A DNA stretch of 64,000 nucleotides from Gloeomargaritales cyanobacterium VI4D9 (GTDB taxonomy: Bacteria; Cyanobacteriota; Cyanobacteriia; Gloeomargaritales; Gloeomargaritaceae). Positions 53,318-54,101 of this stretch are shown here, piece by piece. The translations under genes and the position numbers were made by a program. Positions within the stretch are counted from its first letter, which is position 1. Each line of letters begins with the position of its first letter. The stretch is from contig OV696605.1 in the NCBI GenBank assembly GCA_927797885.1, positions 1,649,157 through 1,713,156 of the forward strand. Direction: 5' to 3'. The notes beneath the pieces are model-generated. The model saw only the letters and a program-made list of their open reading frames with translations, did no database searches and was not told the origin of the DNA.

Positions 53318-53690
53318 ACCTTATCACTCCCACACAAAAACCAATTTATCTTTTAGCTTAGCAGTACAAAATGGAAATGTACAGTCGTCCCCGATAGTGG
53401 GTATTGCTAGCTTTGTAATGCTCAAGAAATGGTACAGCCTATTAAGGGGTCAAGGGATACGGTTGTCAACCCACTTGCTCCAAACCAAGCTATGGCTCAG
53501 CCTTGGAAACACGATTTTTTGTATCCTTTAATGTAAACAGGCTGTAATTGCAATATATAGCAATCCTAGTTGATTTGCATCAGCTTGCGTGCCGTAGGCA
53601 TACAAAGATTTTCCAGAACCATACACCGCAGGTGCTTCTTTTACGGGGGCGGTGCCCCTGCGACCTCTGTTCCATTCTCATTTAGAATTA
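53318..53690. other. Intergenic region with R3b and a long R1
   Basis: Contains R3b copy 3 (53433-53546) and R1 (53556-53694). Before R3b there is a snippet (GCTTTGTAATGCT) shared with 9905. Confidence 0.6.
53433..53546 (-). repeat. R3b repeat, copy 3, reversed
   Basis: It starts TACAGCCTATT and ends CAGGCTGTA. The inner parts (GGGATACGGTTGTCAACC and TTTTTGTATCCTTTAAT) are the reverse of 10199-10309. Confidence 0.85.
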
Positions 53691-53694
53691 CTAT
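53556..53694 (+). repeat. R1 repeat, long variant, ends inside the antitoxin gene
   Basis: At 139 bp it is longer than others: it carries ATTTGCATCAGCTTGCGTG and GCCGTAGGCATAC after the left end, shared with 62384-62413, and an extra TACACCGCAGGTGCTTCTTT. Its degraded right end (AATTACTAT) supplies the stop codon of the antitoxin gene. Confidence 0.82.
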
Positions 53695-53873
53695 CGTAAA
53701 GCTTCATTGACTGAAGCCGAGTCTCGAAAAATTTCTGCTACGTCCGGATCAAGAACTACAATATTACTTGATTTTCTGTAGGCTTCATAGTACTTACCCC
53801 GAACTCCACCTGAGAAATCATAATCTGGTCTCATTTGGTCATCATTAATCATTGCTTCAGATTGCTGATTCAT
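53691..53873 (-). CDS. Antitoxin-type protein, C-terminus cut by R1
   Basis: The 60-residue protein reads DYDFSGGVRGKYYEAYRKSS and then NIVVLDPDVAEIFRDSASVN, the pattern of short antitoxin-like proteins found next to BrnT/RelE-type toxins. Related proteins usually run several residues past EALR. Here the TAG stop lies in R1 sequence, so the C-terminus appears lost. Its start overlaps the 3' end of the toxin remnant, as expected for an operon. Confidence 0.7.
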   Translation of the reverse strand: MNQQSEAMINDDQMRPDYDFSGGVRGKYYEAYRKSSNIVVLDPDVAEIFRDSASVNEALR

Positions 53874-54101
53874 AGTTACGCTTCTCCTTTCGCGTGGCTA
53901 AACGGGCACTAATCAGACGCACTTCACCCTCTCACTCCGTATGGGACACCACCAAAAGCCGCTGTAGCCTTAACTGCCCCATCGTCAAGAAGCGAACTCG
54001 CCCACTGAGTGATCTGGGTCAGGAATTGTGATAGCCAGTGAATCTCCGAAGACCGTGATTGCTTCATAACTATATTCTACTCCTGGGAAGCAAAAGGGGT
54101 G
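53857..54101 (-). pseudogene. Decayed BrnT-type toxin
   Basis: On the minus strand the frame reads [20 protein letters not shown] and SVGE, then after a frame change near 54000 [15 protein letters not shown], stop, EGEVRLISARLATRKEKRNYE. These are the successive segments of BrnT (ribonuclease toxin) proteins. The N-terminal part with the start is missing. One frameshift and one TGA inactivate it. Confidence 0.78.

Follow-up and report, generated by a model that had tools for sequence, protein, structure and literature searches.

This locus raises the question of how both genes of a toxin-antitoxin operon came to be broken, and whether the order of the losses can be read from what remains. The window, that is, the whole 64,000-nt stretch analyzed, comes from Gloeomargaritales cyanobacterium VI4D9 (contig OV696605.1, positions 1,649,157 to 1,713,156), and positions below are counted from its first nucleotide. 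An initial annotation had described a BrnT toxin gene with a frameshift and a stop codon, next to an antitoxin gene ending in a repeat, R1. It considered the locus killed in two ways, with the toxin lost first. We find it very likely that a BrnT/BrnA-like operon has become a pseudogene pair, with three lesions in the toxin gene, an antitoxin cut at R1 and a toxin that probably died first (Table 1).

Table 1. Features of the toxin-antitoxin locus, with positions in the window.
Feature	Position	Strand	Evidence
BrnT toxin 5' leader and start codon, kept	54064..54101	-	38-nt match to L035, 84%, E 2e-5; ATG 54067-54065
64-nt deletion junction in toxin gene	54063..54065	-	Window 54064 aligned with both position 75 and position 139 of L035; likewise L044, L046
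47-aa out-of-frame ORF, opened by former toxin start codon	53924..54067	-	ORF list
Toxin remnant piece 1, about BrnT residues 23-45	53997..54065	-	Alignment; alone too short for Pfam scoring
Toxin remnant piece 2, past one-base frameshift, up to TGA 53934-53932	53932..53994	-	Alignment; alone without Pfam match
Toxin remnant piece 3, overlapping antitoxin start	53860..53931	-	Weak Pfam BrnT match alone, 15.6 bits
Truncated BrnA-like antitoxin, 60 aa, ending ...NEALR	53691..53873	-	ORF list; alignment of relatives
R1, 140-bp MITE copy, terminal repeats TATAGCAATCC..., donating the antitoxin TAG	53556..~53695	+	Repeat search

The minus-strand remnant is assigned by its sequence to the BrnT toxin family. 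Pieces 2 and 3 read together scored 35.6 bits against PF04365 (cut-off 34.5; profile 39-77; one TGA read through), and the intact toxin of the Oculatellaceae locus L035 scored 97.2 bits. At the DNA level, window positions 54065 to 53693 were 84% identical to L035 over 374 bp (E 1.5e-102), which excludes a chance resemblance. A profile search of the whole genome gave a PF04365 match at E <= 0.001 at this locus only. Other damaged BrnT genes of the same family were seen at G001:C1:651902-652246 and G007:C232:5610-5843, one in two pieces and one with an internal TGA.

Alignment with eight relatives located both toxin defects of the initial annotation, a one-base gap near 53996 that leaves the remnant in two frames and the in-frame TGA. 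Both genes are indeed broken, but the two ways of killing were an undercount, since a 64-nt deletion right after the start codon had been missed and the toxin lesions number three. The breakpoint of the deletion was identical against L035, L044 and L046; it touches codons 2-23 of the relative, and a 2-nt repeat lies at its junction in the DNA alignment. The start codon and the 34 nt before it are retained, as the match to L035 indicates. Asp6, Glu7, Lys9, Arg41 and Glu78 are described as important for the ribonuclease activity of Brucella BrnT (PMC5086665). The counterparts of Asp6, Glu7 and Lys9 probably fall in the deleted part, judged by position only in an alignment that does not include Brucella BrnT. 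The N-terminal part with ribonuclease residues (approximately codons 2-23) is absent from the window, the correspondence with the Brucella numbering being deduced.

The antitoxin gene lies directly downstream of the toxin remnant on the same strand and overlaps it, as BrnA follows brnT. The type II BrnT/BrnA system of Brucella abortus (PF04365/PF14384) likewise has the toxin gene first and the antitoxin overlapping its end. It differs from the window locus, where the toxin is broken three times, the antitoxin is truncated and the antitoxin subfamily falls below the Pfam/NCBIfam threshold. Against PF14384 (BrnA) the window protein scored 13 bits, under the cut-off of 26.1, and a 26-member antitoxin alignment gave weak matches in four members (best E 0.06). 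No Pfam or NCBIfam model matched the subfamily at threshold. The antitoxin thus looks like a BrnA by position, yet it fails the BrnA profile test. A scan of the locus for promoters and terminators gave nothing.

A total of 83 antitoxin relatives (L032-L114) were collected, namely the best 80 of 128 matches and three from the same-genus genome G001. The initial annotation had proposed to seek the intact pair in relatives. BrnT lies just upstream on the same strand in 71 of the 83, and 18 of 34 cyanobacterial antitoxin-led loci match a full toxin, counting L064, whose match starts at residue 3 and lacks a filtered ORF. In a quick tree the window antitoxin grouped with the cyanobacterial rows (support 87), its nearest kin not being resolved. 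Antitoxin matches occurred in two of eight genomes of the order, the host's own and G001. The three G001 antitoxins were 38-60% identical to that of the window, and the antitoxin search of these eight genomes gave no orthologous locus in the same genus.

The stop of the antitoxin, TAG at 53691-53693, lies inside the R1 terminal repeat, as had been proposed. Homologues that likewise end at EALR would have argued for a natural end, but all 83 relatives run at least 11 residues past the end of the window protein. In the cyanobacterial relatives this tail is mostly LLAKIAKS plus three residues. In a second search, of 386 cyanobacterial genomes, the window copy alone among the 41 matches listed had an internal stop (TAG) in the antitoxin match. 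The AlphaFold model of the full antitoxin, a weak one (mean pLDDT 64.7; 75 and 79 in blocks 51-60 and 61-70), has helices at 43-48 and 52-72 and no strand, and the predicted last helix is severed after residue 60 in the window. A fold search of this weak model against the PDB gave no match. When PDB sequences were searched with a profile of the antitoxin, the ten matches were designed or engineered helical-repeat proteins and were taken as noise. BrnA is described with a C-terminal RHH domain (PMC11980606), which together with the cut helix suggests that dimerisation and DNA binding should suffer. The 60-aa product, if made, would lack much of the last helix and would probably neither dimerise nor bind its operator any more.

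R1 is a short repeat with terminal inverted repeats (TATAGCAATCC / GGATTGCTATA), present in multiple copies. At least 41 matches were found in the 3,162,419 bases of the genome, a lower bound with 40 of 429 candidates scored, and the 13-nt end TATAGCAATCCTA occurred in 437 exact copies genome-wide (reversed control, 0). TA flanks both ends in 27 of the 41 copies, the mark of a Tc1/mariner-IS630-type MITE. ISY100 of Synechocystis, from the same superfamily, is described as preferring TA targets (PMC2170065, PMC6400869). R1 resembles such MITEs in its shortness, its terminal inverted repeats, its TA flanks and the IS630-type DDE_3 transposases of the genome (23 matches). It differs in that the eight of 23 DDE_3 loci looked at revealed no autonomous element sharing its ends. 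R1-type ends did not consistently flank these eight loci, and those seen were just neighboring MITEs and were rejected as signs of a partner. The window copy shows 6 differences from the consensus in 139 positions (4.3%).

The genome carries a very large MITE load, with window examples at 53556-53695 and ~62365-62523. The load is shared in the genus, with R1 giving 45, 46 and 29 matches in G001, G002 and G006, probably lower bounds.

Among 64 R1 ends tested, of 82 possible for 41 copies, an ORF of at least 60 aa had its stop at offset 0 of the end in three cases: the antitoxin, an ArsR-type HTH gene in L006 and a doubtful ORF in L021. The TAG of the ArsR-type gene (L006:1151-1504; G000:C1:819859-820209, followed by TAG) is likewise provided by the terminus of an R1 copy. 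This gene scored 47.9 bits against PF01022 (cut-off 22), and all six same-genus relatives have 6-13 extra residues, which are poorly conserved. A stop-free frame also runs through R1 (IAILNENG...NQVGLL) and would extend ORFs entering it, as in L002, L006, L007 and L028.

The window copy of R1 is flanked by TA on its far side and by TC on the antitoxin side. This TC belongs to an arginine codon, and the arginine does not vary among the 26 aligned rows; the dinucleotide is therefore probably host sequence, so that this R1 end looks like a deletion halted at R1, or a rearrangement, rather than a clean insertion. The missing antitoxin tail was absent beyond R1. IAITACLH*, in one frame below 53556, resembled IAKSVTV*, but 213 of 500 shuffles matched as well, and the candidate was rejected. 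With the tail missing beyond R1 and no TA duplication on the antitoxin side, the antitoxin end looks like an insertion plus loss or rearrangement. The neighbors at 52877-53384 and 56149-57498 are conserved in the same-genus genomes G001 and G002, where, however, distances of ~1.07 Mb and ~0.56 Mb separate them, which places the locus at a synteny breakpoint. In G002 an R1-like element adjoins the conserved upstream region of the gene at 52877-53317; the window R1 lies ~170 bp further from this gene, and a shared insertion is not claimed.

The window also encodes, at 54117-55925, a protein whose gene contains a 102-bp unit repeated nine times in tandem; the repeats code for TPR-like units. We take this protein to be trypsin-like. 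Next to the same LysR-type gene, G002 gave no match to it.

The initial annotation had held that the toxin was lost first and that the order could be inferred. The locus alone gives no order. Counted as changes from the three nearest relatives, the toxin remnant from codon 24 on has 6, 1 and 9 changes at codon positions 1, 2 and 3 (57, 58 and 41 sites), and the antitoxin has 5, 2 and 11 (53, 57 and 38 sites). The two patterns resemble each other, and most of the changes probably predate the decay. A count over the whole toxin (15, 7 and 13) was dropped because the alignment before codon 24 is not homologous. Three toxin lesions against one antitoxin lesion are not significant given the gene lengths ((91/151)^3 = 0.22). 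Together with the R1 copy only 4.3% from its consensus, these results leave no order readable at the locus.

The relatives make the toxin-first order likelier. Setting aside L050, which lies at a contig edge, 15 of the 33 antitoxin-led cyanobacterial loci had a broken, diverged or missing toxin beside an open antitoxin, as judged with one toxin query that may misjudge diverged toxins; the 46 non-cyanobacterial and three G001 relatives stand outside this count. Four Microcystis loci share the same toxin remnant and may represent one event. In a second sample, the ten closest antitoxin-led relatives from the search of 386 genomes, which left its other antitoxin-led loci unclassed, the toxin was broken in four (L205, L206, L211 and L212). 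A toxin remnant that begins with BrnT residue 42 and adjoins an open antitoxin is shared by L049, L053, L061, L065, L045, L211 and L212, which belong to Microcystis, one Oscillatoriales and two further relatives.

Starting from the toxin in the same 386 cyanobacterial genomes, 30 loci were fetched. The antitoxin was open in all 29 readable ones, and 27 of these toxins were free of stops and frameshifts (L193 has a stop and L180 a frameshift). An undamaged toxin beside a broken antitoxin was found in none of the 27, in surveys that both start from a recognizable gene, the toxin-led one from the best toxins, and so miss heavily damaged pairs. The two samples overlap: the seven loci closest in the toxin-led search recur among the ten of the antitoxin-led sample. 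That no undamaged toxin was seen beside a broken antitoxin would be anticipated if the toxin has to be lost before the antitoxin, and the loci with the toxin alone broken point the same way. That the toxin was broken first is therefore plausible and likelier, though not proven.

The antitoxin may instead have been cut first, or together with the toxin, the toxin decaying later or by the same rearrangement. The synteny breakpoint suits this sequence of events, neither event is dated by the sequence, and an early cut would have done no harm as long as the 60-aa product could still neutralise the toxin. In the relatives, however, decay of the toxin alone is common, and the converse was absent from the 27 loci, and we regard this order as rather unlikely.

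It is also quite improbable that the shortened antitoxin retains a function for which it is maintained, such as regulation or protection from related BrnT toxins. Its 60 codons are open, its changes fall mainly at third positions, and relatives frequently have an antitoxin but no full toxin. The product nevertheless lacks an end present in all 83 relatives, where a helix is predicted to be cut, and the third-position bias may date from before the decay. For four Microcystis antitoxins beside truncated toxins, amino-acid differences equal or exceed silent ones (pairs of broken loci, 0-4 silent and 2-4 amino-acid), indicating relaxed constraint. Across nearest pairs, the broken-toxin set had 140 silent and 67 amino-acid differences, and the intact set 243 and 125, a total that includes the misfit row L068 (23 and 55) and becomes 220 and 70 without it. 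These totals give no support to a special conservation of lone antitoxins.

That the toxin is alive, with errors of sequencing or assembly behind its frameshift and stop, a caveat of the initial annotation, can practically be dismissed: both rest on single-base differences in one assembly, but this is a single contig of 99.91% completeness, and the 64-nt deletion, which such errors leave unexplained, removes about codons 2-23 regardless.

The locus is a real, doubly dead BrnT/BrnA-like pair, an ordinary pseudogene pair showing decay of a familiar kind. The reading in which the toxin died first would start from a BrnT toxin/BrnA-like antitoxin operon whose subfamily also occurs in other cyanobacteria. 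Loss of the toxin would have removed the penalty for antitoxin damage, and R1 would then have arrived at or near the antitoxin 3' end. The DNA beyond R1 would have been lost or moved, as suggested by the missing tail, the lack of TA on that side and the neighbors lying apart in two same-genus genomes. The antitoxin has in any case lost its last ~11 residues, with the TAG of the R1 terminal repeat as its new stop.

No description of this locus was found among the titles and opening abstracts listed for open-licence papers dealing with MITEs, Gloeomargarita, BrnA or lone antitoxins. The mcy genes of Anabaena are cited in a review as cyanobacterial genes inactivated by MITEs (PMC10969869). In both cases a MITE interrupts a gene; in the window, unlike there, the gene is an antitoxin that takes its stop from the MITE and whose toxin is broken too.

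The BrnT-partner antitoxin may repeatedly outlive its toxin in cyanobacteria (15 of 33 loci) because a lone antitoxin is useful, for instance in counteracting related BrnT toxins that arrive on mobile DNA. The window would then represent the end of this path, where the guard is being lost as well. We give this idea a slim chance. The locus itself is a worked example of the death of an addiction module, in which a mobile repeat donated the new stop codon. Worth keeping from this analysis is the finding that antitoxins of relatives have repeatedly survived their toxins. The loci with a broken toxin and an open antitoxin, whose converse was absent from the toxin-led survey, form a natural set on which the disarming of such modules and the retention of lone antitoxins may be tested.
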